Assembly: GCA_009746045.1 (NCBI GenBank)
Contig: RPFO01000225.1
Coordinates: 1,696,454-1,760,453, forward strand
Direction of reading: 5' to 3'
Length of the DNA: 64,000 nucleotides
DNA from: Mesostigma viride
Taxonomy: Eukaryota; Streptophyta; Mesostigmatophyceae; Mesostigmatales; Mesostigmataceae
Shown: positions 39,911-64,000 of the stretch, in pieces
Position numbering within the stretch: position 1 is the first letter of the stretch
Layout of the letters: every line of letters begins with the position of its first letter
Position numbers and translations under genes: made by a program
The notes under the pieces: model-generated
Seen by the model: only the letters and a program-made list of their open reading frames with translations
The model's database searches: none
What the model was told of the DNA's origin: nothing

Positions 39911-42900
39911 CTAGGGCAGCACGACATGGGAGGCAGCTACACGTAACCTCGGGTCCTTTACGAGACCATTAAACTCAACCAGACGTTGCGACAGTCTCCC
40001 TATCATTTCTGTCCTTTGCTTGACCAGCCCACGGTGAAGCTCTTCTTGCTTGCTGTCCCGTATTAGACGCTGGCGGGAACTTTCCGTGGAATCAGTTTGT
40101 CTCACGTTGGCTTCATCCTTAGTCTCAGATTGCGCATGAGCATCCATATTGAAACGCCCAGCAGGGGGGACGAAGAACATCCCTGCTACCGTTTCCGGTG
40201 TAAGCCCTTGGGTTGGTTTCTGGGTGCTCCCACTTCCCATGATGTCCTCTGGGTTGGGCCCGAGCATCAGCTCTGGCGGGGAGAACGGCTCCAGCTGCCA
40301 GTCGTCCAGCGACGGCCGCCACACGTGCGACAGCGTGGACACCATGTCCAGCGCGCGGCACGCGTTGATGCCCGACACCTCGGTCGTCGTCACGTCCACA
40401 AACGGGTACAACACCGGGCGGAACAGCTGGTCCTTGTCCATACCCCAGGCAGGTGTGGGCGGCAGTGTAACCGTCTCCTTGCCATACTGCCAGCGGCAAC
40501 CATCCACAAAGGTCAAGCAGAGCAAGTTAGAATGTTGGAACTCTCCTGCACTTAGATGTACTGCAATGCAGTTCTAGTCCCGAACAGGGTTTATACTCAA
40601 ATTGCTGCTAGCATGAATTGGTGCAAATCGATGCATCTACGGGATGAAACAGAAACACACGTGCATGGGTGGGTGGATCATGCAGGACCAGGGATGGGGC
40701 TTTCCACTCTCAAAGCACTACAGGAAAACAGGAAAGTTGTCACTAAGACCGGCGGGCAAAGGCAGGCACACTACCAAGGAGCTTTAGCACAAGGCCCCTG
40801 CCCCTGCATGTGCTATGTCTGCTACAAACATGTTGCATCATGACCAGCCAACGCCATGCATGGGACGCAGCATACCTTGATGGGGAAGGGCGCGCAGGCG
40901 GCCGAGACACGGCAGAGCTCCGGGCACTCCCCCAGCAGGCGGGCCTCGTCGATAATGCCCACGGGCCCTGCAGGGTTAGCACCCAAACAGGTGCGCCAAC
41001 AAAGAGAGGTACCGAACAGATGCAGCCGCAGAGGTTGGGTCGGTACAACTGCCCCCCTGACGTGACCACATCGTCAGCGCAGGGCGCTGCCCCTTGAAAG
41101 TGATGACACTTGGTGATGCTCCCATTGGACCCCACGAGGGGATCCACAAGTCCACGTCATGCACCACAGCGCATCGCCCAGACCCAAACAACACGAGGGC
41201 CTCCCCTATGTATGTAGTAGGTTTGCACGCGTTGTCTACCTGCACCGATCATGCGACATAGCCCCAGAAGATTTGGCCTCACAAATCTAGAAGAGAGACA
41301 GTGGCGCTGAAAAAGCCTGGGCTGTGGCACCCTGGCTGTGGAGATCACAAACTGCTACCCAAGGAACTGCTACGCATTGCAACCAGCGTGGCACTCGCGC
41401 GCATCCCTTACAATGCTTCAGTCTATTGTTAAGGATGCTAAGAATGTTTGGGCGTGCTTCCAGACGTCGCACCGCTTGACACTTTGGATTGCAAGCAACC
41501 CAGTGGAAGGAAGCGCATGAGTCTGCCTGCGGCTGCATGCTACTTTTGTGGGCACACGGCGTGTTCCTTTTCTCTCGGCAGGCACACATGTCCACACTCA
41601 CATGCCTGGGCCTCTCGTGGCATCTCATGCCACACCCTGCAACAGCGCTCCCTGCGCACAGCAAAACTGGCAGCACGACCTCTGACAGCTCAACCCCGCA
41701 CAACGGTGGCAGCACACACCACCATCAGACTTGCACATGAACCACTTGCTGTAAGCCCCGCTGGCTGGCTGGCAGCAGCCCGAAAAACATGACTGTGCAT
41801 TGGTACCTCCACCTCTGAGTCATAAACTTGCGGCTGCCAGCAGCAGGCCCATGTGAATTGTTGAGAATCATTATGGTCGCCATAGAGAGTGTGACCTGCT
41901 CGGGACACCTACCCGCCGCCATCTCCTCCTGTGCTCCCACCAGCACATCCGGTGTGCCCGTGGCCATCGGCACGTGGCCCACCAGCGGCGCGGGGAACTC
42001 CTTGCTGTGTCCGCGCGCACAGAACGCCAGCGGCTCCTGGGGCACAAGGAGGGGACGTCCAGGGGACGGCGTGCGGAGGGCGGACAGCAAGGGGCCATGG
42101 GCCAGGGAACAAAGGGGGCCGGTGTGCTCGCCACGTCAGTCTGGCACGCACGAGGCTCGCATGGGTGGTGCTGACGGCAAGGGAAGAGTGATGATGGGCC
42201 AAGCAGCGAGTTCGCACATGCTCCACCATCCAATAGCCATAGCGTCAGAGGCGCAGGCGGCATCTCTGGGCACATTGCTACACATGGGAGCAAGTCGTGG
42301 CTGGCCCTGTCGAGGTGCGTTGATGCAAAAGGGGCTAGTCGTGCCTGGTCCTGTCGAGGTGCGTTGATGCAAAAGGGGCTAGTCGTGCCTGGCCCTGTCA
42401 AGGTGCGTTGATGCAAAAGGGGCTGGTCGTGCCTGGCCCCGTCGAGGTGCGTTGATGCAAAAGGGGCTAGTCACGCCTGGTCCTGTCGAGGTGCGTTGAT
42501 GCAAAAGGGGCTAGTCACGCCTGGTCCTGTCGAGGTGCGTTGATGCAAAAGGGGCTAGTCGTGCCTGGCCCTGTCGAGGTGCGTTGATGCAAAAGGGGCT
42601 GGTCGTGCCTGGTCCTGTCGAGGTGCGTTGATGCAAAAGGGGCTAGTCGTGCCTGGTCCTGTCGAGGTGCGTTGATGCAAAAGGGGCTGGTCGTGCCTGG
42701 CCCCGTCGAGGTGCGTTGATGCAAAAGGGGCTAGTCACGCCTGGTCCTGTCGAGGTGCGTTGATGCAAAAGGGGCTAGTCACGCCTGGTCCTGTCGAGGT
42801 GCGTTGATGCAAAAGGGGCTAGTCGTGCCTGGCCCTGTCGAGGTGCGTTGATGCAAAAGGGGCTGGTCGTGCCTGGTCCTGTCGAGGTGCGTTGATGCAA

Positions 42901-45900
42901 AAGGGGCTGGTCGTGCCTGGCCCCGTCGAGGTGCGTTGATGCAAAAGGGGCTAGTCACGCCTGGTCCTGCCGAGGTGCGTTGATGCAAAAGGGGCTAGTC
43001 GTGCCTGGCCCTGTCGAGGTGCGTTGATGCAAAAGGGGCTGGTCGTGCCTGGTCCTGTCGAGGTGCGTTGATGCAAAAGGGGCCATTCGTGCCTGGCCCT
43101 GTCGAGGTGCGTTGATGCAAAAGGGGCTAGTCGTGCCTGGTCCTGTCTACACAAGGCGGCGCTGCCGCACGCACGCACCGTCATGGGCAGGGCCTCCACC
43201 GTGTTGACGTCGGCGTACTCCGACATGTCCACCGGGCCAAGATCGCGCACCGCGTCCGGGTGAAAGCTGGGGAAGCGGGGGCCTGCATTTATGCTGGTGC
43301 ACGTCAGCGAGGGGTCGGCCAGCCGCTCCAGGAACGTCCGCAGCAGCGTGTCGTTGCTGCTGGCAGCTGCCCCGTGGCCCCCTGCTGGGGTTGTGTCGAT
43401 CCGCTGCGACCCAGCACCCACGGACGCACTGCCGGCACCTGAACGCAAAGGTGGGGGAGGACATGTTGGTGGGAGCCATCAAGCCCGTGCTGTCAGGCAT
43501 GTACCCCTGCTAGCGGGGCACGCTTGAGGGACATATCACTGCCTGCGGACTGGCCATCCCGCGTAGCTCACCCACCACCTAAGCCTGCAGTGTCCGAGGT
43601 TGATCACCCCTGACACAGCACAGTACCCGCGCATGCCTGTGCGGCGACCGGGGTAGCAGGCCAAAACAAGTGGTTGACAAAAACAAATGGCAACCGCGGT
43701 TGACAAAACGAATCGCAACCGTTTCGCTAATAAAGTCCTTTCATGATGAATGTGAGGGGCAAGGATTGGATGCTTAGGAATTTGAGTTCAAGGCGTGGCC
43801 ACATCATGCCGCCCAGTGCCTACATTCTTCTGCAGACATGGGGGAACCCACCACCAGTGCGGAACGGAAGGGGGGCCCAGTGCATGACCAGGACCCCCAA
43901 CCATGCACACCCTAACGTGCTGCCTATAACAGCTTGAACCAAACACCTTCCATCTATCAGCAGCTGCAGGCATGACATGTGGCACCTAGGCAGCCCCTAC
44001 TGCCGGCAGGCTCACCGCTTTGCGCGGCGGCCGACTGTATGGCCGCCAGCCGTCCCATCATGCGGGCACGGTAGATGACCTGCGCGCACCGAGCCAGCAA
44101 GCAGGGGGGGAGGCAGCGTTGGGAATGTGAGGCGCGGGGCAATGTGCGAGGCGTGGGGCACTGCATGGTTTGACGAGGGCCAAACAGCGTGCAGGGCGGT
44201 AGCAGGACTAGTGCCCGCAGAGGTGGCACTGCCGGGATGCCTCTCCAGCAGTTCCCTAAGACAAACCTGACAACCTCGGATGGAATGAAAAGTCTGCAAA
44301 ATGCCCACCACTGAGGATGACCCTCGGAACACATTATCGAAGCCCGCATGACCCTTGGTAAGCATGCTAGGAAAACCCCTGGCCACTTGTAATGACCATC
44401 CATGGCCTGCATCACAGTAGGAGTGTGCGGTGGACACCTGAATTTTTCCTGGTGGACCGCCGGCATGCATGCAAGGATGACCCAGGGACTACCCTGCTGG
44501 GTTCCGAAGGATATTCGCCTGCGGCAATGTCGATGCTCAGGCGCGGCAATCGCCGCATGGCATCAAGGGAGTACGGGGCCTGGCTCCATGTGCGGGGGAC
44601 GTGCCTCCTTTGGCACGATGACAGCCAGGATATCGCAGGGCATGGCGACCTATGGCGCGGAAAGAGGGTTGGCCCCCCGCATAGGGACGCATGGGGGGGG
44701 GGGGAGTGTACGTACCCTGCGCACCGCCAGCACAAACGTGCGCATGACGAGCGCCCGCTTGCCCCACACGTGCGTCGGGATCTCCTCCCACGACACCACC
44801 TCAAGTGCCACCCCCCCCGTGGCGCCGTCCCCCACCCTGGTCAGGTGCATGGCGCGCTCCTCGCAGAGCTCCACAGTTCGCCGCTCGCGCCCGATCGCGC
44901 GCTCGTCCGCCGCGCGCTGGGCCTCCTGCTGCGCCTGCGCGCGTTTGAACGCCGCCAGCTGGTCGTCCGTCATCAGCTCCACGCCGAGTGCGAGGCAGAT
45001 CTTCAGGTCCTGCGCATGTCATAGGCACGCAGGCACACGGGCACGCAGGCATGCGGCAGGTGGGTGTGCGCGGGGGCCACGCAAGCAATGGGGGGTGACC
45101 AAAGTCACCACGCGCCGTGTCGGCATGCGTGTGCAACACATGTTTCGCTACAAGCCATGGCTGAAAGTGCAGGCCCTACCCCTCTTGTGCACCTGCCAGT
45201 GACTGTTACAGTGACTTTGTGATCCCTGGATGGGGCATTTCCAACGGTTTCTTGCTACTCCCATGTCTTCACAGTACGAGTAAAAATCTGATGGTTGTGT
45301 ATCTCAGCCATTCCTCTGGTGTGGTGGTACGTGCCGCTGGGTGGCTACACCCTGACCTATAGACAGCCAGCCCGTATAGTGCAGCCCCCAGCTAGCCACC
45401 AATCAGCACATCATGCGAGGTGTGTGCGCACGCACCTTCGCCTTTTCGCTCTGCTGCACGCGGCCCAGCTCCTTCTGGAAGTAGGCCTCCTTGACTTGGC
45501 GGTTCAGCGACAGGTCGTCCAGGATGCCCGCCCGTGCGTATGCGGACTGCAGGCACCCATCAAGGCACCGTGGGAGGCGAAAGGCAACAGGACAGGTCGC
45601 GAGCGCTCGCGCATCAAGACACGCGGGGAGGCGGCAGGCGACAGCAGGCTGGTGGGGTGCACTGACCACGCCTGCCCAGCCTATATGGAATATCCAAATA
45701 CTGTAGGACCAGGGCAGCGCCATGGGAAACAGTCTGGTGCTATCAAACAGCAAATGTTGTGAAACTGCAATGTGCCTGCAGGTGCGCGCTTGTGGCATGG
45801 TGGCATGGGAGCCCTAAAGATGAATGCCCTGTTTGCAGCAGCATGGCAGGAGACCAGCTTGTGTGCACCGGTGCATGTGGACGCTGTGCTGCCACAGAGT

Positions 45901-48619
45901 GTTATCTCACGTTTTTCATAATCTGGGAATTGCTGGAAACGTTTCACCAACTATATGGCATAGAGCCAGGGGTAATGCGTCTGCAGGCAGCCACCACAGG
46001 CCCATGGACCATATAAATGAACAAGCAAGGTGTGGACAAATGTGATCAGAGTTACACTCGACAAGTTCCTAGCAGGGCCCCTACCTGCCCAAGCGTGTTG
46101 CCCCCCTCAGACGCCTGCCCCCCATCTTGTGGTGCCGCCATCACCGCGTTCAAGTCCTGCGCCCGCAGTTTGCCCGGCTGTAGGGGAGGCGGTCCACCAC
46201 ACAGGCACACGCGCAAGCACACACACAGGAACACAGGCACAGGCACAGGCACAGGCAGATGGGGTCAGCACGCACACGGCCACACGGACAGCACCCACCC
46301 ACCCACACGTACACCCAGGTGCGCATGGTCGTGGAGAACAGGAAGCCAGTGGCGTCAGGCATTATGGCAGCTGACAGGCACGCACATGCAGGAATGGGCG
46401 GCGCACACGCACTGGTATCCACTATCTTCACCCATGGAGCGCCAGGTGGCACGAGGCAGACCAGTAGTGGGAACAAGGCGACTGGGCATGTGAGGAGGCA
46501 TGGGTTGTGTGCACCAGGGGGCCAGCGCAGGAGAGGAAGCAGGGGGTCTAGGAGCAGGGGGATTGAGGGGGGGAAATCATGTGCCCCCGCATGGCCTGAA
46601 TGTGACGAAGGCGGCAGCACAGGTCTGGTTGGCAGCACAGCAGACGGCATTGTGACAAGCAGCTATCCCCCAGCCTGCCATGTGTTGTTCATGGCAGCCT
46701 CTTGCATGCCCCACTTTTGCGTTGTATTGCTGCAGCAACACAGGCTGGGCGTGCGCGTGGCCTCACCTGCTGCAGCGGCACATGCTGGATGTGCGCGTGG
46801 CCTCACCTGCTGCAGCAGCACATGCTGGACGTGCGCGTGGTCCGCCAGCCGCGTGCGGCGTATGCGCAGGCCGTCCACCACCTCCTCGGGTGTGGGCGGC
46901 CGCATCTTGGGCAGCGTGGCCTGGATGCTGCGCAGGTGGCCGGCCTGGATGTCCTGCAGCGTCTTCTGCAGCGTGTTGGCCAGGTGTATCTGTGCGGCGA
47001 CGCACACGACCACAGCGACAAATAAGGGGTCAGAACCGGACGAGGGACCTATGAGGGCACACTGACACAGCCATAATCCACTTTAGTTTATATAAAAGTA
47101 GGCAGCAACTGAATGGCAGACATGCCACAGCCATCGTGGTGAAAACTGACGCTTGGGAGCAAAACCTCCACCCAACTGCTGTAAACCCTAGAACTTGATC
47201 ATGCACATCCGAAAAGGGTTTACCATCGCGGGCAGCTCTGCCCTTTGCACGCAGCAAGGCACGGCATCGTGGTCTGCCAGCCCCTCACTATGCTCCCCCT
47301 GCCCCCGCCTCGAAGCAGCACACGACGAGGGATGTGGCATGCTGGGGCAACACCCGCACGGTGCCCGCTATGTGTGCGACCCCGCATGCGTGATTCACTC
47401 ACACTACAGCCACAACCGCCACATGTCAACGCGCGGACAAATGGGTGCTGTTCACGGGGTCCTCACCTTGTCCTGCCTGCGTGTGTAGGCATCCCCCCCC
47501 CCGGCACCGCCCCCTATCACCCGCTGGCTGTACTCGAGCCGCCTCGTCGTCTCCGTCAGGTTGACCACCTCCTCCTCGCGGTGCACGCCGCTGCCCTCCC
47601 CGTCCTCGGGCAGCTCTGTCGCCATCAGGTTGCTCAGCAGTCGCTCCCTGCGGCCATGGCCAGGAACAGCAGTAGAGGAGCACAATGTATCCGTAACGGA
47701 CAGGAAATGTGGCATCTTGTGGGGGACAGCTGGTTCACTACACAGCAGAGGCTACAAAATGGCGACTGACAACAATAACGGTGCACAAACGGCAGCGGAG
47801 GTAGCAACGGTGCACAAACGGCAGCGGAGGTAGACAACCCAGCACCGAGTGCACCGGCTAGCCTGGTATCGTTGTGTGCCCGGAGCAAGCATGGGGGCTG
47901 TGCCCATGGAAGGGTGAAAAGGTGGGCTGCGTGTGTGGCATGGCATGGACTTCAGCAGCTAGGTGGATGGGAACAAGGTACACCCCCCCATACACGTTTA
48001 AGATTGGGGTCCAACCAATCCAGGGCTCACAATCTTAAAGAATCTTACTCTGTGATTCAATTCTACTACATTCTACTACGTTATACTACTACTCTAATAC
48101 TAGAAGAGGTCAAATCCAGGGTCTCAGAATATTAAACCTGGGATTCTTAAAGATGGTGTGGGGGGTTGTACCAGTATGGTGTGGGTGACCTAGGTTTAGG
48201 GCGGTGCGAACATGCCAGCACATGCACTATTGGCTCCTTGCTGCACGGTGTTATGGTGCCGGGGAGAACGCAGCCGCGATAGGCTGGCCCGCACATGGGC
48301 GAGGCAGGAGGCTGCTCGGGCACACTTTGCCTTTGTTCCTGCCTGCTGAGGGGCTCCCATGGCGTGCATGCTCCCATGCCATGCGTGCGTGTAGCTCACT
48401 ATCGTGTAGGCGTACGCGCGCACGTGAAGCAAGCATGCGTGCACACACGTTGCCCCACGCACCGCTTGAGACCGGGGAACCCTGTCCCGCTGACGTGGCA
48501 GCGCAGCGGCTCGGAGTGGAACTGGGAGATGTGGACCACCACCTCCTGCGCGTGCGTGGCCAGCCGCGTCGGGCAGAAGTCCACCGTGATGGTCGCGTCG
48601 CCATTGGCGGGTACCACTC
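39911..48619 (-). CDS. CFAP221: CFAP221 (Pcdp1/FAP221), central-pair flagellar protein, 5' end missing
   Basis: Eleven in-phase exons: 48463-48619, 47467-47647, 46807-46989, 46085-46177, 45436-45546, 44716-45009, 44016-44079, 43179-43438, 41913-42036, 40876-40967, 39911-40486 (stop). They give 710 aa. CFAP221 is a calmodulin-binding part of the C1d projection of the ciliary central pair, with FAP46, FAP54 and FAP74 (known in Chlamydomonas). The first visible exon completes an ASH domain: VVPANG..TITVDFCP...VVVHISQFHSEPL.C.VSGTGFPG. Later landmarks match the vertebrate protein as I recall it: PGKLRAQDLNAVM, NRQVKEAYFQKELGRVQQ and VIYRARMMGRLAAIQ. The exon set starts in phase 1, so a coding exon must lie upstream. 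By comparison about 200 N-terminal residues are missing, and they must lie beyond the 33-bp array, past 64000. Introns carry a 44-bp minisatellite, a duplicated donor and a MITE. Confidence 0.85.
42292..43147. repeat. 44-bp minisatellite in a CFAP221 intron
   Basis: About 19.5 units of the type GAGGTGCGTTGATGCAAAAG-GGGCT(A/G)GTC(GT/AC)GCCTGG.C.. fill most of the intron between exons 43179-43438 and 41913-42036, starting about 30 bp from the donor at 43178. Variants at three positions (AGTC/GGTC, GTGCC/ACGCC, CCCTG/TCCTG/CCCCG) recur in blocks, with the rare CCCCG type at 42441, 42705 and 42925. On the minus strand each unit contains CACCTCGACAG, which resembles a splice acceptor. Confidence 0.92.
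46731..46840 (-). repeat. 40-bp tandem duplication of an exon end and its splice donor
   Basis: 46801-46840 (the last 34 nt of the CFAP221 exon 46807-46989 plus its donor GTGAGG) is repeated almost exactly at 46761-46800, and partly again at 46731-46760 without an intact donor. Each full 40-bp unit ends CTGCAGCAG|GTGAGG on the minus strand, so two equal donors lie 40 bp apart. Use of the inner donor keeps phase with the next exon (PGKL...). Use of the second would add 40 nt and shift the frame. Confidence 0.85.
47981..48168. mobile_element. Small MITE with TA flanks (Tc1/mariner-like)
   Basis: The left end, CACCCCCCCATACACGTTTA, and the right end, CAACCCCCCACACCATCTTT (reverse complement), form imperfect terminal inverted repeats of about 25 bp. 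TA dinucleotides flank both ends (47979-47980 and 48169-48170). The 188-bp interior is AT-rich with TTCTACTAC repeats and no coding potential. A TA duplication suggests the Tc1/mariner group. It sits in the first visible CFAP221 intron. Confidence 0.6.
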
Positions 48620-48715
48620 CTGGCACACCACGCAGGGAAAGGGAGGCATGCAGCAGGCCGCTCAAGGGATTTGTCCGGGGGATTGGTTTGGGGCGCGGGC
48701 AAAGGGAAGCAGACC

Positions 48716-48775
48716 CGTCAAGAGGGGCCATCACCCGTCAAGTGGGGCCATCACCCCTCAAGTGGGGCCATCATC
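48716..48775. repeat. 20-bp tandem repeat, three units
   Basis: CGTCAAGTGGGGCCATCACC and two close variants occur head to tail, just upstream (in gene sense) of the first visible CFAP221 exon. It is a small intronic repeat. Confidence 0.9.
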
Positions 48776-49337
48776 GGGCTATTGATAACCTGCACTGTCA
48801 ACAAACCTCTGCAACTGCAAACCTGTGCAATGAAAAAACAGTCCAGACAGTTGCACACCATAACCAGCTGCAAACGGTGCAGATGCCTGGCATATCCCAG
48901 CAACGGGCCTACTGGCACTCTCATGCGCTGGACTCATGGCCGTGGGCGCTACACCACCCCGTGGATACCGAGCGAACAAAGGGGCAGGTACAAGACGCGA
49001 CCTACCCCGCAACAGGACCTGGGGCCAGCACCAGTGGGGAGGGTCCCAAGGGCTGGTTGGGTCGTGCAGAGCTGCAGGGAGCCCAGCACCTCACACCCTT
49101 GGCTGGCTAGGTAGCAGGCTGCATGCAAGGGCTCGCCATGGCCACACATGGCCAGCCTTGGTGCCGACCAGCTAAACTGGCAGCTAGTGCCATCACATAG
49201 AAGATCCTTGCCACATACCGCCATCCCCTGTAGAGCACCTTCCCCCGCTACACGCACTCCCATCTCGCCGACTCATGCCACAACCTGCAACAGCCTGCGT
49301 GCCTGCCCCCAGCAAACAGAGCACCTGAAGCGCATCA

Positions 49338-52300
49338 CCCACCGTGCATGCTGTACATGCTGCACGCCCACCGTGCATGCTGTACACGCTGAACTCGGGC
49401 TCACCGTGCATGCTGTACACGCTGAACTCGGGCTCACCTTGCATGCTGTACACGCTGAACTCGGGCCCACCGTGCATGCTGTACACGCTGAACTCGGGCT
49501 CACCGTGCATGCTGTACACGCTGCACGCCCACCGTGCATGCTGTACACGCTGAACTCGGGCTCACCGTGCATGCTGTACACGCTGAACTCGGGCTCACCG
49601 TGCATGCTGTACACGCTGAACTCGGGCTCACCGTGCATGCTGTACACGCTGAACTCGGGCTCACCGTGCATGCTGTACACGCTGAACTCGGGCTCACCGT
49701 GCATGCTGTACACGCTGAACTCGGGCTCACCGTGCATGCTGTACACGCTGAACTCGGGCTCACCGTGCATGCTGTACACGCTGAACTCGGGCTCACCGTG
49801 CATGCTGTACACGCTGAACTCGGGCTCACCGTGCATGCTGTACACGCTGAACTCGGGCTCACCGTGCATGCTGTACACGCTGAACTCGGGCCACCGTGCA
49901 TGCTGTACACGCTGAACTCGGGCCCACCGTGCATGCTGTACACGCTGAACTCGGGCTCACCGTGCATGCTGTACACGCTGAACTCGGGCTCACCGTGCAT
50001 GCTGTACACGCTGAACTCGGGCTCACCGTGCATGCTGTACACGCTGAACTCGGGCTCACCGTGCATGCTGTACACGCTGAACTCGGGCTCACCGTGCATG
50101 CTGTACACGCTGAACTCGGGCTCACCGTGCATGCTGTACACGCTGAACTCGGGCTCACCGTGCATGCTGTACACGCTGAACTCGGGCTCACCGTGCATGC
50201 TGTACACGCTGAACTCGGGCTCACCGTGCATGCTGTACACGCTGAACTCGGGCTCACCGTGCATGCTGTACACGCTGAACTCGGGCTCACCGTGCATGCT
50301 GTACACGCTGAACTCGGGCTCACCGTGCATGCTGTACACGCTGAACTCGGGCTCACCGTGCATGCTGTACACGCTGAACTCGGGCTCACCGTGCATGCTG
50401 TACACGCTGAACTCGGGCTCACCGTGCATGCTGTACACGCTGAACTCGGGCTCACCGTGCATGCTGTACACGCTGAACTCGGGCTCACCGTGCATGCTGT
50501 ACACGCTGAACTCGGGCTCACCGTGCATGCTGTACACGCTGAACTCGGGCTCACCGTGCATGCTGTACACGCTGAACTCGGGCTCACCGTGCATGCTGTA
50601 CACGCTGAACTCGGGCTCACCGTGCATGCTGTACACGCTGAACTCGGGCTCACCGTGCATGCTGTACACGCTGAACTCGGGCCCACCGTGCATGCTGTAC
50701 ACGCTGAACTCGGGCTCACCGTGCATGCTGTACACGCTGAACTCGGGCTCACCGTGCATGCTGTACACGCTGAACTCGGGCCCACCGTGCATGCTGTACA
50801 CGCTGAACTCGGGCTCACCGTGCATGCTGTACACGCTGAACTCGGGCTCACCGTGCATGCTGTACACGCTGAACTCGGGCTCACCGTGCATGCTGTACAC
50901 GCTGAACTCGGGCTCACCGTGCATGCTGTACACGCTGAACTCGGGCTCACCGTGCATGCTGTACACGCTGAACTCGGGCCACCGTGCATGCTGTACACGC
51001 TGAACTCGGGCTCACCGTGCATGCTGTACACGCTGAACTCGGGCTCACCGTGCATGCTGTACACGCTGAACTCGGGCTCACCGTGCATGCTGTACACGCT
51101 GAACTCGGGCTCACCGTGCATGCTGTACACGCTGAACTCGGGCTCACCGTGCATGCTGTACACGCTGAACTCGGGCTCACCGTGCATGCTGTACACGCTG
51201 AACTCGGGCTCACCGTGCATGCTGTACACGCTGAACTCGGGCTCACCGTGCATGCTGTACACGCTGAACTCGGGCTCACCGTGCATGCTGTACACGCTGA
51301 ACTCGGGCTCACCGTGCATGCTGTACACGCTGAACTCGGGCTCACCGTGCATGCTGTACACGCTGAACTCGGGCTCACCGTGCATGCTGTACACGCTGAA
51401 CTCGGGCTCACCGTGCATGCTGTACACGCTGAACTCGGGCTCACCGTGCATGCTGTACACGCTGAACTCGGGCTCACCGTGCATGCTGTACACGCTGAAC
51501 TCGGGCTCACCGTGCATGCTGTACACGCTGAACTCGGGCTCACCGTGCATGCTGTACACGCTGAACTCGGGCTCACCGTGCATGCTGTACACGCTGAACT
51601 CGGGCTCACCGTGCATGCTGTACACGCTGAACTCGGGCTCACCGTGCATGCTGTACACGCTGAACTCGGGCTCACCGTGCATGCTGTACACGCTGAACTC
51701 GGGCTCACCGTGCATGCTGTACACGCTGAACTCGGGCTCACCGTGCATGCTGTACACGCTGAACTCGGGCTCACCGTGCATGCTGTACACGCTGAACTCG
51801 GGCTCACCGTGCATGCTGTACACGCTGAACTCGGGCTCACCGTGCATGCTGTACACGCTGAACTCGGGCTCACCGTGCATGCTGTACACGCTGAACTCGG
51901 GCTCACCGTGCATGCTGTACACGCTGAACTCGGGCTCACCGTGCATGCTGTACACGCTGAACTCGGGCTCACCGTGCATGCTGTACACGCTGAACTCGGG
52001 CTCACCGTGCATGCTGTACACGCTGAACTCGGGCTCACCGTGCATGCTGTACACGCTGAACTCGGGCTCACCGTGCATGCTGTACACGCTGAACTCGGGC
52101 TCACCGTGCATGCTGTACACGCTGAACTCGGGCTCACCGTGCATGCTGTACACGCTGAACTCGGGCTCACCGTGCATGCTGTACACGCTGAACTCGGGCT
52201 CACCGTGCATGCTGTACACGCTGAACTCGGGCTCACCGTGCATGCTGTACACGCTGAACTCGGGCTCACCGTGCATGCTGTACACGCTGAACTCGGGCTC

Positions 52301-55300
52301 ACCGTGCATGCTGTACACGCTGAACTCGGGCTCACCGTGCATGCTGTACACGCTGAACTCGGGCTCACCGTGCATGCTGTACACGCTGAACTCGGGCTCA
52401 CCGTGCATGCTGTACACGCTGAACTCGGGCTCACCGTGCATGCTGTACACGCTGAACTCGGGCTCACCGTGCATGCTGTACACGCTGAACTCGGGCTCAC
52501 CGTGCATGCTGTACACGCTGAACTCGGGCTCACCGTGCATGCTGTACACGCTGAACTCGGGCTCACCGTGCATGCTGTACACGCTGAACTCGGGCTCACC
52601 GTGCATGCTGTACACGCTGAACTCGGGCTCACCGTGCATGCTGTACACGCTGAACTCGGGCCACCGTGCATGCTGTACACGCTGAACTCGGGCTCACCGT
52701 GCATGCTGTACACGCTGAACTCGGGCTCACCGTGCATGCTGTACACGCTGAACTCGGGCTCACCGTGCATGCTGTACACGCTGAACTCGGGCTCACCGTG
52801 CATGCTGTACACGCTGAACTCGGGCTCACCGTGCATGCTGTACACGCTGAACTCGGGCTCACCGTGCATGCTGTACACGCTGAACTCGGGCTCACCGTGC
52901 ATGCTGTACACGCTGAACTCGGGCTCACCGTGCATGCTGTACACGCTGAACTCGGGCTCACCGTGCATGCTGTACACGCTGAACTCGGGCTCACCGTGCA
53001 TGCTGTACACGCTGAACTCGGGCTCACCGTGCATGCTGTACACGCTGAACTCGGGCTCACCGTGCATGCTGTACACGCTGAACTCGGGCTCACCGTGCAT
53101 GCTGTACACGCTGAACTCGGGCTCACCGTGCATGCTGTACACGCTGAACTCGGGCTCACCGTGCATGCTGTACACGCTGAACTCGGGCTCACCGTGCATG
53201 CTGTACACGCTGAACTCGGGCTCACCGTGCATGCTGTACACGCTGAACTCGGGCTCACCGTGCATGCTGTACACGCTGAACTCGGGCTCACCGTGCATGC
53301 TGTACACGCTGAACTCGGGCTCACCGTGCATGCTGTACACGCTGAACTCGGGCTCACCGTGCATGCTGTACACGCTGAACTCGGGCTCACCGTGCATGCT
53401 GTACACGCTGAACTCGGGCTCACCGTGCATGCTGTACACGCTGAACTCGGGCTCACCGTGCATGCTGTACACGCTGAACTCGGGCTCACCGTGCATGCTG
53501 TACACGCTGAACTCGGGCTCACCGTGCATGCTGTACACGCTGAACTCGGGCTCACCGTGCATGCTGTACACGCTGAACTCGGGCTCACCGTGCATGCTGT
53601 ACACGCTGAACTCGGGCTCACCGTGCATGCTGTACACGCTGAACTCGGGCTCACCGTGCATGCTGTACACGCTGAACTCGGGCTCACCGTGCATGCTGTA
53701 CACGCTGAACTCGGGCTCACCGTGCATGCTGTACACGCTGAACTCGGGCTCACCGTGCATGCTGTACACGCTGAACTCGGGCTCACCGTGCATGCTGTAC
53801 ACGCTGAACTCGGGCTCACCGTGCATGCTGTACACGCTGAACTCGGGCTCACCGTGCATGCTGTACACGCTGAACTCGGGCTCACCGTGCATGCTGTACA
53901 CGCTGAACTCGGGCTCACCGTGCATGCTGTACACGCTGAACTCGGGCTCACCGTGCATGCTGTACACGCTGAACTCGGGCTCACCGTGCATGCTGTACAC
54001 GCTGAACTCGGGCTCACCGTGCATGCTGTACACGCTGAACTCGGGCTCACCGTGCATGCTGTACACGCTGAACTCGGGCTCACCGTGCATGCTGTACACG
54101 CTGAACTCGGGCTCACCGTGCATGCTGTACACGCTGAACTCGGGCTCACCGTGCATGCTGTACACGCTGAACTCGGGCTCACCGTGCATGCTGTACACGC
54201 TGAACTCGGGCTCACCGTGCATGCTGTACACGCTGAACTCGGGCTCACCGTGCATGCTGTACACGCTGAACTCGGGCTCACCGTGCATGCTGTACACGCT
54301 GAACTCGGGCTCACCGTGCATGCTGTACACGCTGAACTCGGGCTCACCGTGCATGCTGTACACGCTGAACTCGGGCTCACCGTGCATGCTGTACACGCTG
54401 AACTCGGGCTCACCGTGCATGCTGTACACGCTGAACTCGGGCTCACCGTGCATGCTGTACACGCTGAACTCGGGCTCACCGTGCATGCTGTACACGCTGA
54501 ACTCGGGCTCACCGTGCATGCTGTACACGCTGAACTCGGGCTCACCGTGCATGCTGTACACGCTGAACTCGGGCTCACCGTGCATGCTGTACACGCTGAA
54601 CTCGGGCTCACCGTGCATGCTGTACACGCTGAACTCGGGCTCACCGTGCATGCTGTACACGCTGAACTCGGGCTCACCGTGCATGCTGTACACGCTGAAC
54701 TCGGGCTCACCGTGCATGCTGTACACGCTGAACTCGGGCTCACCGTGCATGCTGTACACGCTGAACTCGGGCTCACCGTGCATGCTGTACACGCTGAACT
54801 CGGGCTCACCGTGCATGCTGTACACGCTGAACTCGGGCTCACCGTGCATGCTGTACACGCTGAACTCGGGCTCACCGTGCATGCTGTACACGCTGAACTC
54901 GGGCTCACCGTGCATGCTGTACACGCTGAACTCGGGCTCACCGTGCATGCTGTACACGCTGAACTCGGGCTCACCGTGCATGCTGTACACGCTGAACTCG
55001 GGCTCACCGTGCATGCTGTACACGCTGAACTCGGGCTCACCGTGCATGCTGTACACGCTGAACTCGGGCTCACCGTGCATGCTGTACACGCTGAACTCGG
55101 GCTCACCGTGCATGCTGTACACGCTGAACTCGGGCTCACCGTGCATGCTGTACACGCTGAACTCGGGCTCACCGTGCATGCTGTACACGCTGAACTCGGG
55201 CTCACCGTGCATGCTGTACACGCTGAACTCGGGCTCACCGTGCATGCTGTACACGCTGAACTCGGGCTCACCGTGCATGCTGTACACGCTGAACTCGGGC

Positions 55301-58300
55301 TCACCGTGCATGCTGTACACGCTGAACTCGGGCTCACCGTGCATGCTGTACACGCTGAACTCGGGCTCACCGTGCATGCTGTACACGCTGAACTCGGGCT
55401 CACCGTGCATGCTGTACACGCTGAACTCGGGCTCACCGTGCATGCTGTACACGCTGAACTCGGGCTCACCGTGCATGCTGTACACGCTGAACTCGGGCTC
55501 ACCGTGCATGCTGTACACGCTGAACTCGGGCTCACCGTGCATGCTGTACACGCTGAACTCGGGCTCACCGTGCATGCTGTACACGCTGAACTCGGGCTCA
55601 CCGTGCATGCTGTACACGCTGAACTCGGGCTCACCGTGCATGCTGTACACGCTGAACTCGGGCTCACCGTGCATGCTGTACACGCTGAACTCGGGCTCAC
55701 CGTGCATGCTGTACACGCTGAACTCGGGCTCACCGTGCATGCTGTACACGCTGAACTCGGGCTCACCGTGCATGCTGTACACGCTGAACTCGGGCTCACC
55801 GTGCATGCTGTACACGCTGAACTCGGGCTCACCGTGCATGCTGTACACGCTGAACTCGGGCTCACCGTGCATGCTGTACACGCTGAACTCGGGCTCACCG
55901 TGCATGCTGTACACGCTGAACTCGGGCTCACCGTGCATGCTGTACACGCTGAACTCGGGCTCACCGTGCATGCTGTACACGCTGAACTCGGGCTCACCGT
56001 GCATGCTGTACACGCTGAACTCGGGCTCACCGTGCATGCTGTACACGCTGAACTCGGGCTCACCGTGCATGCTGTACACGCTGAACTCGGGCTCACCGTG
56101 CATGCTGTACACGCTGAACTCGGGCTCACCGTGCATGCTGTACACGCTGAACTCGGGCTCACCGTGCATGCTGTACACGCTGAACTCGGGCTCACCGTGC
56201 ATGCTGTACACGCTGAACTCGGGCTCACCGTGCATGCTGTACACGCTGAACTCGGGCTCACCGTGCATGCTGTACACGCTGAACTCGGGCTCACCGTGCA
56301 TGCTGTACACGCTGAACTCGGGCTCACCGTGCATGCTGTACACGCTGAACTCGGGCTCACCGTGCATGCTGTACACGCTGAACTCGGGCTCACCGTGCAT
56401 GCTGTACACGCTGAACTCGGGCTCACCGTGCATGCTGTACACGCTGAACTCGGGCTCACCGTGCATGCTGTACACGCTGAACTCGGGCTCACCGTGCATG
56501 CTGTACACGCTGAACTCGGGCTCACCGTGCATGCTGTACACGCTGAACTCGGGCTCACCGTGCATGCTGTACACGCTGAACTCGGGCTCACCGTGCATGC
56601 TGTACACGCTGAACTCGGGCTCACCGTGCATGCTGTACACGCTGAACTCGGGCTCACCGTGCATGCTGTACACGCTGAACTCGGGCTCACCGTGCATGCT
56701 GTACACGCTGAACTCGGGCTCACCGTGCATGCTGTACACGCTGAACTCGGGCTCACCGTGCATGCTGTACACGCTGAACTCGGGCTCACCGTGCATGCTG
56801 TACACGCTGAACTCGGGCTCACCGTGCATGCTGTACACGCTGAACTCGGGCTCACCGTGCATGCTGTACACGCTGAACTCGGGCTCACCGTGCATGCTGT
56901 ACACGCTGAACTCGGGCTCACCGTGCATGCTGTACACGCTGAACTCGGGCTCACCGTGCATGCTGTACACGCTGAACTCGGGCTCACCGTGCATGCTGTA
57001 CACGCTGAACTCGGGCTCACCGTGCATGCTGTACACGCTGAACTCGGGCTCACCGTGCATGCTGTACACGCTGAACTCGGGCTCACCGTGCATGCTGTAC
57101 ACGCTGAACTCGGGCTCACCGTGCATGCTGTACACGCTGAACTCGGGCTCACCGTGCATGCTGTACACGCTGAACTCGGGCTCACCGTGCATGCTGTACA
57201 CGCTGAACTCGGGCTCACCGTGCATGCTGTACACGCTGAACTCGGGCTCACCGTGCATGCTGTACACGCTGAACTCGGGCTCACCGTGCATGCTGTACAC
57301 GCTGAACTCGGGCTCACCGTGCATGCTGTACACGCTGAACTCGGGCTCACCGTGCATGCTGTACACGCTGAACTCGGGCTCACCGTGCATGCTGTACACG
57401 CTGAACTCGGGCTCACCGTGCATGCTGTACACGCTGAACTCGGGCTCACCGTGCATGCTGTACACGCTGAACTCGGGCTCACCGTGCATGCTGTACACGC
57501 TGAACTCGGGCTCACCGTGCATGCTGTACACGCTGAACTCGGGCTCACCGTGCATGCTGTACACGCTGAACTCGGGCTCACCGTGCATGCTGTACACGCT
57601 GAACTCGGGCTCACCGTGCATGCTGTACACGCTGAACTCGGGCTCACCGTGCATGCTGTACACGCTGAACTCGGGCTCACCGTGCATGCTGTACACGCTG
57701 AACTCGGGCTCACCGTGCATGCTGTACACGCTGAACTCGGGCTCACCGTGCATGCTGTACACGCTGAACTCGGGCTCACCGTGCATGCTGTACACGCTGA
57801 ACTCGGGCTCACCGTGCATGCTGTACACGCTGAACTCGGGCTCACCGTGCATGCTGTACACGCTGAACTCGGGCTCACCGTGCATGCTGTACACGCTGAA
57901 CTCGGGCTCACCGTGCATGCTGTACACGCTGAACTCGGGCTCACCGTGCATGCTGTACACGCTGAACTCGGGCTCACCGTGCATGCTGTACACGCTGAAC
58001 TCGGGCTCACCGTGCATGCTGTACACGCTGAACTCGGGCTCACCGTGCATGCTGTACACGCTGAACTCGGGCTCACCGTGCATGCTGTACACGCTGAACT
58101 CGGGCTCACCGTGCATGCTGTACACGCTGAACTCGGGCTCACCGTGCATGCTGTACACGCTGAACTCGGGCTCACCGTGCATGCTGTACACGCTGAACTC
58201 GGGCTCACCGTGCATGCTGTACACGCTGAACTCGGGCTCACCGTGCATGCTGTACACGCTGAACTCGGGCTCACCGTGCATGCTGTACACGCTGAACTCG

Positions 58301-61300
58301 GGCTCACCGTGCATGCTGTACACGCTGAACTCGGGCTCACCGTGCATGCTGTACACGCTGAACTCGGGCTCACCGTGCATGCTGTACACGCTGAACTCGG
58401 GCTCACCGTGCATGCTGTACACGCTGAACTCGGGCTCACCGTGCATGCTGTACACGCTGAACTCGGGCTCACCGTGCATGCTGTACACGCTGAACTCGGG
58501 CTCACCGTGCATGCTGTACACGCTGAACTCGGGCTCACCGTGCATGCTGTACACGCTGAACTCGGGCTCACCGTGCATGCTGTACACGCTGAACTCGGGC
58601 TCACCGTGCATGCTGTACACGCTGAACTCGGGCTCACCGTGCATGCTGTACACGCTGAACTCGGGCTCACCGTGCATGCTGTACACGCTGAACTCGGGCT
58701 CACCGTGCATGCTGTACACGCTGAACTCGGGCTCACCGTGCATGCTGTACACGCTGAACTCGGGCTCACCGTGCATGCTGTACACGCTGAACTCGGGCTC
58801 ACCGTGCATGCTGTACACGCTGAACTCGGGCTCACCGTGCATGCTGTACACGCTGAACTCGGGCTCACCGTGCATGCTGTACACGCTGAACTCGGGCTCA
58901 CCGTGCATGCTGTACACGCTGAACTCGGGCTCACCGTGCATGCTGTACACGCTGAACTCGGGCTCACCGTGCATGCTGTACACGCTGAACTCGGGCTCAC
59001 CGTGCATGCTGTACACGCTGAACTCGGGCTCACCGTGCATGCTGTACACGCTGAACTCGGGCTCACCGTGCATGCTGTACACGCTGAACTCGGGCTCACC
59101 GTGCATGCTGTACACGCTGAACTCGGGCTCACCGTGCATGCTGTACACGCTGAACTCGGGCTCACCGTGCATGCTGTACACGCTGAACTCGGGCTCACCG
59201 TGCATGCTGTACACGCTGAACTCGGGCTCACCGTGCATGCTGTACACGCTGAACTCGGGCTCACCGTGCATGCTGTACACGCTGAACTCGGGCTCACCGT
59301 GCATGCTGTACACGCTGAACTCGGGCTCACCGTGCATGCTGTACACGCTGAACTCGGGCTCACCGTGCATGCTGTACACGCTGAACTCGGGCTCACCGTG
59401 CATGCTGTACACGCTGAACTCGGGCTCACCGTGCATGCTGTACACGCTGAACTCGGGCTCACCGTGCATGCTGTACACGCTGAACTCGGGCTCACCGTGC
59501 ATGCTGTACACGCTGAACTCGGGCTCACCGTGCATGCTGTACACGCTGAACTCGGGCTCACCGTGCATGCTGTACACGCTGAACTCGGGCTCACCGTGCA
59601 TGCTGTACACGCTGAACTCGGGCTCACCGTGCATGCTGTACACGCTGAACTCGGGCTCACCGTGCATGCTGTACACGCTGAACTCGGGCTCACCGTGCAT
59701 GCTGTACACGCTGAACTCGGGCTCACCGTGCATGCTGTACACGCTGAACTCGGGCTCACCGTGCATGCTGTACACGCTGAACTCGGGCTCACCGTGCATG
59801 CTGTACACGCTGAACTCGGGCTCACCGTGCATGCTGTACACGCTGAACTCGGGCTCACCGTGCATGCTGTACACGCTGAACTCGGGCTCACCGTGCATGC
59901 TGTACACGCTGAACTCGGGCTCACCGTGCATGCTGTACACGCTGAACTCGGGCTCACCGTGCATGCTGTACACGCTGAACTCGGGCTCACCGTGCATGCT
60001 GTACACGCTGAACTCGGGCTCACCGTGCATGCTGTACACGCTGAACTCGGGCTCACCGTGCATGCTGTACACGCTGAACTCGGGCTCACCGTGCATGCTG
60101 TACACGCTGAACTCGGGCTCACCGTGCATGCTGTACACGCTGAACTCGGGCTCACCGTGCATGCTGTACACGCTGAACTCGGGCTCACCGTGCATGCTGT
60201 ACACGCTGAACTCGGGCTCACCGTGCATGCTGTACACGCTGAACTCGGGCTCACCGTGCATGCTGTACACGCTGAACTCGGGCTCACCGTGCATGCTGTA
60301 CACGCTGAACTCGGGCTCACCGTGCATGCTGTACACGCTGAACTCGGGCTCACCGTGCATGCTGTACACGCTGAACTCGGGCTCACCGTGCATGCTGTAC
60401 ACGCTGAACTCGGGCTCACCGTGCATGCTGTACACGCTGAACTCGGGCTCACCGTGCATGCTGTACACGCTGAACTCGGGCTCACCGTGCATGCTGTACA
60501 CGCTGAACTCGGGCTCACCGTGCATGCTGTACACGCTGAACTCGGGCTCACCGTGCATGCTGTACACGCTGAACTCGGGCTCACCGTGCATGCTGTACAC
60601 GCTGAACTCGGGCTCACCGTGCATGCTGTACACGCTGAACTCGGGCTCACCGTGCATGCTGTACACGCTGAACTCGGGCTCACCGTGCATGCTGTACACG
60701 CTGAACTCGGGCTCACCGTGCATGCTGTACACGCTGAACTCGGGCTCACCGTGCATGCTGTACACGCTGAACTCGGGCTCACCGTGCATGCTGTACACGC
60801 TGAACTCGGGCTCACCGTGCATGCTGTACACGCTGAACTCGGGCTCACCGTGCATGCTGTACACGCTGAACTCGGGCTCACCGTGCATGCTGTACACGCT
60901 GAACTCGGGCTCACCGTGCATGCTGTACACGCTGAACTCGGGCTCACCGTGCATGCTGTACACGCTGAACTCGGGCTCACCGTGCATGCTGTACACGCTG
61001 AACTCGGGCTCACCGTGCATGCTGTACACGCTGAACTCGGGCTCACCGTGCATGCTGTACACGCTGAACTCGGGCTCACCGTGCATGCTGTACACGCTGA
61101 ACTCGGGCTCACCGTGCATGCTGTACACGCTGAACTCGGGCTCACCGTGCATGCTGTACACGCTGAACTCGGGCTCACCGTGCATGCTGTACACGCTGAA
61201 CTCGGGCTCACCGTGCATGCTGTACACGCTGAACTCGGGCTCACCGTGCATGCTGTACACGCTGAACTCGGGCTCACCGTGCATGCTGTACACGCTGAAC

Positions 61301-64000
61301 TCGGGCTCACCGTGCATGCTGTACACGCTGAACTCGGGCTCACCGTGCATGCTGTACACGCTGAACTCGGGCTCACCGTGCATGCTGTACACGCTGAACT
61401 CGGGCTCACCGTGCATGCTGTACACGCTGAACTCGGGCTCACCGTGCATGCTGTACACGCTGAACTCGGGCTCACCGTGCATGCTGTACACGCTGAACTC
61501 GGGCTCACCGTGCATGCTGTACACGCTGAACTCGGGCTCACCGTGCATGCTGTACACGCTGAACTCGGGCTCACCGTGCATGCTGTACACGCTGAACTCG
61601 GGCTCACCGTGCATGCTGTACACGCTGAACTCGGGCTCACCGTGCATGCTGTACACGCTGAACTCGGGCTCACCGTGCATGCTGTACACGCTGAACTCGG
61701 GCTCACCGTGCATGCTGTACACGCTGAACTCGGGCTCACCGTGCATGCTGTACACGCTGAACTCGGGCTCACCGTGCATGCTGTACACGCTGAACTCGGG
61801 CTCACCGTGCATGCTGTACACGCTGAACTCGGGCTCACCGTGCATGCTGTACACGCTGAACTCGGGCTCACCGTGCATGCTGTACACGCTGAACTCGGGC
61901 TCACCGTGCATGCTGTACACGCTGAACTCGGGCTCACCGTGCATGCTGTACACGCTGAACTCGGGCTCACCGTGCATGCTGTACACGCTGAACTCGGGCT
62001 CACCGTGCATGCTGTACACGCTGAACTCGGGCTCACCGTGCATGCTGTACACGCTGAACTCGGGCTCACCGTGCATGCTGTACACGCTGAACTCGGGCTC
62101 ACCGTGCATGCTGTACACGCTGAACTCGGGCTCACCGTGCATGCTGTACACGCTGAACTCGGGCTCACCGTGCATGCTGTACACGCTGAACTCGGGCTCA
62201 CCGTGCATGCTGTACACGCTGAACTCGGGCTCACCGTGCATGCTGTACACGCTGAACTCGGGCTCACCGTGCATGCTGTACACGCTGAACTCGGGCTCAC
62301 CGTGCATGCTGTACACGCTGAACTCGGGCTCACCGTGCATGCTGTACACGCTGAACTCGGGCTCACCGTGCATGCTGTACACGCTGAACTCGGGCTCACC
62401 GTGCATGCTGTACACGCTGAACTCGGGCTCACCGTGCATGCTGTACACGCTGAACTCGGGCTCACCGTGCATGCTGTACACGCTGAACTCGGGCTCACCG
62501 TGCATGCTGTACACGCTGAACTCGGGCTCACCGTGCATGCTGTACACGCTGAACTCGGGCTCACCGTGCATGCTGTACACGCTGAACTCGGGCTCACCGT
62601 GCATGCTGTACACGCTGAACTCGGGCTCACCGTGCATGCTGTACACGCTGAACTCGGGCTCACCGTGCATGCTGTACACGCTGAACTCGGGCTCACCGTG
62701 CATGCTGTACACGCTGAACTCGGGCTCACCGTGCATGCTGTACACGCTGAACTCGGGCTCACCGTGCATGCTGTACACGCTGAACTCGGGCTCACCGTGC
62801 ATGCTGTACACGCTGAACTCGGGCTCACCGTGCATGCTGTACACGCTGAACTCGGGCTCACCGTGCATGCTGTACACGCTGAACTCGGGCTCACCGTGCA
62901 TGCTGTACACGCTGAACTCGGGCTCACCGTGCATGCTGTACACGCTGAACTCGGGCTCACCGTGCATGCTGTACACGCTGAACTCGGGCTCACCGTGCAT
63001 GCTGTACACGCTGAACTCGGGCTCACCGTGCATGCTGTACACGCTGAACTCGGGCTCACCGTGCATGCTGTACACGCTGAACTCGGGCTCACCGTGCATG
63101 CTGTACACGCTGAACTCGGGCTCACCGTGCATGCTGTACACGCTGAACTCGGGCTCACCGTGCATGCTGTACACGCTGAACTCGGGCTCACCGTGCATGC
63201 TGTACACGCTGAACTCGGGCTCACCGTGCATGCTGTACACGCTGAACTCGGGCTCACCGTGCATGCTGTACACGCTGAACTCGGGCTCACCGTGCATGCT
63301 GTACACGCTGAACTCGGGCTCACCGTGCATGCTGTACACGCTGAACTCGGGCTCACCGTGCATGCTGTACACGCTGAACTCGGGCTCACCGTGCATGCTG
63401 TACACGCTGAACTCGGGCTCACCGTGCATGCTGTACACGCTGAACTCGGGCTCACCGTGCATGCTGTACACGCTGAACTCGGGCTCACCGTGCATGCTGT
63501 ACACGCTGAACTCGGGCTCACCGTGCATGCTGTACACGCTGAACTCGGGCCACCGTGCATGCTGTACACGCTGAACTCGGGCTCACCGTGCATGCTGTAC
63601 ACGCTGAACTCGGGCTCACCGTGCATGCTGTACACGCTGAACTCGGGCTCACCGTGCATGCTGTACACGCTGAACTCGGGCTCACCGTGCATGCTGTACA
63701 CGCTGAACTCGGGCTCACCGTGCATGCTGTACACGCTGAACTCGGGCTCACCGTGCATGCTGTACACGCTGAACTCGGGCTCACCGTGCATGCTGTACAC
63801 GCTGAACTCGGGCTCACCGTGCATGCTGTACACGCTGAACTCGGGCTCACCGTGCATGCTGTACACGCTGAACTCGGGCTCACCGTGCATGCTGTACACG
63901 CTGAACTCGGGCTCACCGTGCATGCTGTACACGCTGAACTCGGGCTCACCGTGCATGCTGTACACGCTGAACTCGGGCTCACCGTGCATGCTGTACACGC
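49338..64000 (-). repeat. 33-bp satellite array (about 440 units), exon-donor junction of CFAP221
   Basis: A 33-bp unit is repeated without interruption to the end of the window and beyond. In gene sense (minus) a unit is CCGAGTTCAGCG, then TGTACAGCATGCACG, then GTGAGC. Most units are identical. GGGCCC variants occur near 49468, 49921, 50682 and 50781. Four 32-bp units lack one base (near 49890, 50979, 52660, 63550). The edge at 49338-49545 also holds shortened units. Since 33 is a multiple of three, very long open frames (up to 4196 codons) arise on both strands; none should be called a gene. The first 27 nt read PEFSVYSMH plus G in phase 1 and are followed by a perfect splice donor, matching what must precede the CFAP221 exon at 48619. 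Confidence 0.97.

Follow-up and report, generated by a model that had tools for sequence, protein, structure and literature searches.

A 33-bp satellite in an intron of CFAP221 in the green alga Mesostigma viride is probably an overgrown exon-border duplication

One intron of the cilia gene CFAP221 of Mesostigma viride contains a satellite of at least 515 units of 33 bp, and a typical unit consists of what reads as the end of the preceding exon together with a 5' splice site. We consider it very probable that this satellite is an overgrown duplication of an exon border, of the type known as a mirage or exon stutter, that it is intronic, and that splicing proceeds from the 5'-most donor so that the array is discarded. 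Copies of exon ends with their donors recur at two further borders of the same gene and in kinesin genes.

Results

CFAP221 in the window

The window, by which we mean the whole stretch of 64,000 nucleotides that was analysed, corresponds to bases 1,696,454-1,760,453 of contig C1746 in an assembly of 440 Mb and 2,243 contigs. The C-terminal part of CFAP221 (FAP221/PCDP1) is encoded by eleven exons that run from 48619 to a stop at 39911, with GT-AG borders and agreeing phases. These visible exons are intact and open throughout. Joined, they match EukProt P0001 (jgi/Mesvir1) at 99% identity over 93% of the query. The identity of the gene is indicated by the best solved chains, labelled FAP360, FAP221 and CFAP221, and by the homologue P0004, named "primary ciliary dyskinesia 1-like". 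The features of the gene and of its repeats in the window are as follows (a slash marks the exon-intron border here and below).

49340..64000, minus strand: 33-bp satellite (TRF period 33, 99% matches)
Typical unit of this satellite, minus strand: putative 25-base exon end GAGTTCAGCGTGTACAGCATGCACG followed by donor GTGAGCCC
48620..49339, minus strand: unique intron sequence between the last unit (donor ACG/GTGGGTGATG) and the acceptor GTGCCAG
48463..48619, minus strand: first visible CFAP221 exon (VVPANG...FPGLK), phase-1 start
47467..47647, minus strand: CFAP221 exon
46807..46989, minus strand: CFAP221 exon E3, its end and donor tandemly copied
46728..46840, minus strand: 40-bp repeat, 2.8 copies, over the end of E3 and its donor CTGCTGCAGCAG/GTGAGGCC, border at 46807
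46085..46177, minus strand: CFAP221 exon
45436..45546, minus strand: CFAP221 exon
44716..45009, minus strand: CFAP221 exon
44016..44079, minus strand: CFAP221 exon
43179..43438, minus strand: CFAP221 exon
41913..42036, minus strand: CFAP221 exon
40876..40967, minus strand: CFAP221 exon
39911..40486, minus strand: last CFAP221 exon, including the stop

The 33-bp satellite is long and homogeneous

Read past position 64000, as the first-pass annotation of this DNA had proposed, the satellite persists for 2,362 bases as far as the end of C1746, which gives a total of 17,023 bp, and no N-terminal exon appears before the contig ends. The minus-strand unit is CACGGTGAGCCCGAGTTCAGCGTGTACAGCATG. We parsed 515 units, including those beyond the window; 493 of them are identical, and 329 identical units follow one another without a break at 52669-63525. 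Unit length is 33 in 499 cases, 32 in 11 and 29 in two, with lengths of 31, 34 and 66 also present. The splice site is part of what is copied: 495 of the 516 CACGGT sites in the array carry the donor GTGAGC, while 10 read GTGGCC and 8 GTGGGC, and the earlier statement that every unit holds GTGAGC was slightly too strong.

The exact 26-mer GAGTTCAGCGTGTACAGCATGCACGG from the unit is found 1,093 times in the assembly, never in forward and always in reverse orientation, and the same word read backwards is found nowhere in it. C1746 has 512 of these occurrences; the others among the matches listed are all on C877 (20,963 bp), a contig that starts in the same unique flank as C1746, with small indels, and terminates inside the array. 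C877 is in our view either redundant or a haplotig. Reading C1746 to the contig end and C877 at both of its ends did not reach the 5' edge of the array. Among the matches listed, words of this satellite and of a 16-bp satellite described below occur at CFAP221 only.

An array over-expanded or mis-joined during assembly would be expected to show more unit errors at contig ends, as is seen here, and consensus smoothing could yield 329 successive identical units. We judge such an artefact to be extremely unlikely, as C1746 and C877 share the unique flank and both pass from it into the array, and the copies in kinesin genes (see below) are diverged and are no duplicated reads.

The unit fits CFAP221 in phase, donor and protein sequence

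Following GTGCCAG, the exon at 48619-48463 opens with GA GTG GTA CCC, and the first base of its first codon has to come from upstream. Prefixing one satellite unit supplies it and gives EFSVYSMH-G-VVPANG. The first-pass annotation had pointed out that donor, phase and protein sense of the unit agree, and this is borne out by the orthologues, which read F.V....GVVPANG at this place. When the joined protein is aligned with orthologues, the similarity does extend ahead of VVPANG. F2 and G9 of the EFSVYSMHG segment are invariant among nine aligned sequences (homologue sequences at the position of the unit are AFVVQPQHGVVPANG, TFDVEPRRGVVPANG and EFTIGPLSGTIPPGG), and the score against the Pfam family Ig_CFAP65_4th rises from 34.6 to 45.1 bits (+10.5) once the unit is prefixed to the exon. 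The best solved chain, labelled FAP360, goes from 41.3 to 46.8 bits (+5.5) and the FAP221 chain from 40.3 to 45.9 bits, both gap-free. We also built an orthologue-column score from eleven homologue segments and applied it to the phase-1 open G/GT sites of the fetched sequence. Only 3 of 4,377 other sites fit at least as well as the unit (rank 4 of 4,378), in line with the expectation that chance would rarely give this agreement. The score of the unit, 9.7, is below every leave-one-out score of the homologues (10.4-20.3), and the unit is without the Pro that is usual in them.

It is conceivable that the unit is unrelated to CFAP221 and that its GTGAGC and its frame match the exon by chance. The fit is poorer than that of true orthologues and the source exon was not found, but the gap-free gains in score and the rank of the unit speak against coincidence, as does the architecture shared with the two repeats visible elsewhere in CFAP221 (the 16-bp satellite and E3), and we regard a chance match as highly improbable. 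That the satellite is an amplified CFAP221 exon end with its donor, as had been claimed, stands as far as orthologue fit, phase and donor are concerned; the exon content of the unit is read from the orthologue fit only, a weak short-query search having found no source exon.

A coding array is the other reading that the frame invites. Splicing would then use donors at the 3' end of the array, and CFAP221 would have a very long (EPEFSVYSMHG)n insertion. Thirty-three bases make 11 codons, the exon frame of the unit is stop-free, and the longest open stretches within the array reach up to 4,211 codons. However, the 11 units of 32 bp and the few of other lengths shift the frame, and stops occur in all three frames (70, 364 and 63); because every frame contains stops, we hold a coding array to be very unlikely. 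The insertion would also land within an Ig-like domain, and the neighbouring 16-bp array cannot be coding, as each copied donor adds 16 bases. On this analysis the 33-bp array is most likely intronic, with the first donor in use.

A second satellite begins at the donor of the preceding visible exon

A Trebouxia query located the N-terminal CFAP221 exons on contig C1419. The last of them ends ...CVIHET, at CATGAGAC/GTGAGTGAGGGGA. This exon (...CATGAGAC/GTGAGT) passes straight into an (GAGACGTGAGTGAGGG)n array, the satellite being present from the first intron base.

C1419:124800-134641 (L013 800-10000 and L014): 16-bp satellite, GAGAC/GTGAGTGAGGG, starting at the donor of the HET exon

Here the source exon is visible, and the 16-bp unit is therefore plainly five exon bases plus the donor. 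The array extends over 9.8 kb up to the end of C1419 and, with 78% matches, is less regular than the 33-bp one. The sequence GAGACGTGAGT, donor included, is present in 307 copies, and all 43 occurrences of a 28-mer from this satellite are on C1419. Upstream of the N-terminal exons there is a 51-bp tandem repeat with GC/GTGAGT in each unit (L012, 5079-5618).

Homologues demand about 35 further residues from HET to EFSVYSMHG, and these probably sit in the gap between the 16-bp and the 33-bp satellites. A search with the Trebouxia segment was empty at E up to 10, which is a weak test with so short a query, and a longer query matched only the N-terminal exons on C1419 and the exon at 48619. The missing exon is absent from C1746 up to the contig end and from both ends of C877 (flank and array). 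Protein searches for a fuller CFAP221 returned from Mesvir1 just two split models: Mesvir1/26042 (P0008) stops at HET, the donor GTGA being read as a stop, and Mesvir1/13489 is without the exon at 48619. This accounts for a concrete annotation failure, in which CFAP221 is represented by two truncated models and the stretch between the two satellites is lost.

Exon E3 and other arrays of the window

The repeat at the border of E3, which had gone unmentioned in the first-pass annotation, lies inside the window. Its period is 40, 38 of 40 bases are alike over -28..+12, and 28 exon bases are included.

Two other arrays were considered as exon-derived repeats and rejected. The first is a 44-bp array (19 copies, 42293-43147) in the CFAP221 intron that follows the exon 43438-43179; the adjoining exon end is absent from its units. 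The second is a 41-bp array (13 copies, 13194-13718) in an intron of a minus-strand gene that appears to be methyltransferase-like from our reading of its ORFs. Its unit contains CAT/GTGAGG and is without the adjoining exon end.

Copies of exon ends with donors at other genes

The survey covered SMC2, CFAP221 and 30 exon loci of kinesins taken from a single family search. The SMC2 gene lies in the window at 18723-31486 on the plus strand, and its exons were placed by tblastn. The query was -40..+12 at each donor and the target the next 600 bp. The score threshold of 15 was fixed after the first scan; none of 2,000 shuffled-intron trials reached it. Kinesin loci were dropped where no usable donor (7 of 30) or no usable acceptor (11 of 30) was available. 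The repeat had been seen in advance at L022, L032, L033, L038, E3 and the 16-bp site, L025 and L030 were entered as donors once a repeat was noticed there, and at L022, L032, L033 and L038 the donor used was the top-scoring one.

Leaving the 33-bp case uncounted, exon end and donor are copied nearby at 13 of 50 donors, or at 11 of 48 without the two post-hoc cases. The copies are found at 11 of 23 donors in kinesin genes, 2 of 12 in CFAP221 and 0 of 15 in SMC2, and five additional donors scanned for copies gave 0 of 5. At L033 and at the 16-bp site just 3 and 5 exon bases, respectively, are common to the copies. The mirrored scan of acceptors identified copies at 3 of 46 (the acceptor sides of L036, L033 and L038). 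The same queries run against the exon side gave 0 of 50 donors and 0 of 46 acceptors, and purely exonic windows likewise 0 of 50 and 0 of 46, while intron-internal windows gave 3 to 8 of 50 after donors and 3 to 5 of 46 before acceptors. A cross-locus null reached a score of 52, which we put down to paralogous loci. Donor copying is thus real and frequent in kinesin genes, and it stands over a background of intronic stuttering. The absence of copies from SMC2 and from the five other donors indicates that the process is uneven.

The excess of donors over acceptors is suggestive (p 0.013 with all sites). In a reduced set, with post-hoc cases out and the five negatives in, p is 0.049 at the threshold of 15, and 0.16, 0.13 and 0.28 at thresholds of 13, 17 and 20, respectively.

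In the kinesin copies at L022, L032, L035, L038 and L041, similarity is well kept over the exon end, extends through the donor and fades out after 5-9 intron bases. This limit is not predicted by a plain tandem duplication. Together with the donor excess, it could mean that copied donors are retained because they are functional, either binding U1 and helping to define the exon or acting as decoys. We consider this unlikely: the excess weakens in the reduced set and weakens further at the thresholds of 17 and 20, local alignments in any case end at the onset of mismatches, the copy at L041 has lost its GT, and SMC2 manages without copies.

Use of the listed copied donor would shift the frame in 11 of 13 genes and introduce stops in the other two. 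Since use of a copied donor breaks the frame or brings stops in all 13, the working donor would normally be the first one, beside the exon. By analogy, the 33-bp array would be intronic as well. Errors of donor choice there would be mild: each unit spans 11 stop-free codons and, provided that unit length stays constant, splicing from a later donor would do no more than insert extra EPEFSVYSMHG repeats.

Several further features were observed at the surveyed loci and at a pair of CCT genes. At L025 (reverse strand), the donor GTTTGTGCAG/GCAAGTGC belongs to an apparent GC-AG intron of a kinesin gene, and a 22-bp array there repeats the donor together with the end of the exon, with six further copies at 14/18 or better. 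A 63-bp array of 5.4 copies (L033, 1762-2100) begins three bases ahead of a kinesin donor (AAG/GTGGGG), and a long (CTCCCTC)n tract precedes a kinesin exon (L022, 695-1472). In the CCT gene pair, exon starts are 4,237 bp apart on C1641 (L046) and 1,062 bp apart on C887 (L045). The two CCT-like regions differ by 5 mismatches in 405 aligned bases and then become abruptly unrelated inside the intron, which is about 3.2 kb longer in C1641; this looks like an insertion difference between haplotigs. An allelic array difference was sought in this pair, and the stretches read contain no array.

Discussion

Origin and growth of the satellite

We infer the duplication origin of the satellite, the first-donor rule and the way of growth from the features described above. 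A short tandem duplication across the 3' border of a CFAP221 exon would have placed a second exon end and 5' splice site in the intron. Copies past the first donor are without coding constraint, and slippage or unequal exchange could therefore amplify them; by either route they may have been multiplied and homogenised to at least 515 units. With the 5'-most donor, the one next to the true exon, spliced to the single acceptor before 48619, the array would be discarded. The kinesin copies, the 40-bp repeat at E3 and the 16-bp satellite in the CFAP221 intron before this one may have arisen in the same way. If so, the satellite illustrates one route of satellite birth, and it is a natural setting in which to ask how one donor among hundreds of identical ones is chosen by the spliceosome.

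This raises the broader possibility that 5' splice sites of Mesostigma viride are hot spots of duplication, where donors seed stuttering more than acceptors or intron interiors do, introns grow outward from the donor, and some become kilobase satellites. We offer this tentatively and think it somewhat less probable than its opposite. If true, stuttering seeded at donors would be one way in which introns lengthen and satellites arise in this early-diverging streptophyte alga.

Comparison with known systems

The genome paper on Mesostigma gives a size of 441.8 Mb and attributes 30.1% of intron space to repeats; the portions available contain nothing on donor repeats, and its main text is without the word "splice" (PMC6947507). 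The array shares its local tandem growth within an intron with the usual minisatellites of introns, of which the 44-bp array at 42293-43147 is an example, and differs from them in that their units are without the adjoining exon end.

The first-pass annotation knew of no described satellite made from an exon/5'-splice-site junction. That claim does not hold: the available text on amphioxus mirages and on chicken exon stuttering already describes repeats of this make (PMC3087553, PMC3902484, PMC12954441), so the kind of repeat is known. Searches for stuttering terms found only the chicken paper (PMC12954441), and among the matches listed we recognised no algal or Mesostigma case, in a search mostly of literature outside subscription. 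Within the reach of these searches, the new elements are the algal lineage, the copy number and homogeneity, and the pair of such satellites that flank a single missing exon.

In the parts of the amphioxus papers that were available, mirage minisatellites are described from the genes Adh3, globin, TnC and PGBD5 as tandem duplications over the exon-intron border that contain many copies of the splice signal; they reportedly leave splicing undisturbed and have been proposed as a source of new introns (PMC3087553, PMC3902484). The Mesostigma array is like them in its tandem copies that carry the splice signal and probably span an exon border. The chordate arrays in those accounts are small, two globin haplotypes having 3 and 6 units, and their units measure 10-72 or 150-160 bp (PMC3087553, PMC3902484), whereas the present array, from a green alga, comprises no fewer than 515 units of 33 bp. 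Rogers' idea of intron gain through tandem duplication of AG/GT segments, as outlined in the sections consulted of one of these papers (PMC3087553), similarly has the splice site carried by the duplicated segment. In Mesostigma it is an existing intron that has been enlarged, and no new intron is seen.

On chicken dot chromosomes, exon stuttering is described, in the available part of the report, as the spread of copied exon edges, together with the donor or acceptor, across introns of GC-rich microchromosomes, in 1-44 imperfect copies and over spans to 23,555 bp, with length variation demonstrated between individuals (PMC12954441). Mesostigma shares with these cases the local copies in the adjoining intron beside an intact exon, and the pattern in which some genes have many introns affected while others are spared. 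The spans are comparable, reaching 23.6 kb in the chicken cases described there (PMC12954441) and 17.0 kb in C1746, where the contig ends inside the array. The copies in Mesostigma are far more numerous than those reported there (PMC12954441), and 493 of 515 are identical. The satellite thus extends a phenomenon of lancelets and chicken dot chromosomes to a streptophyte green alga, at satellite copy number.
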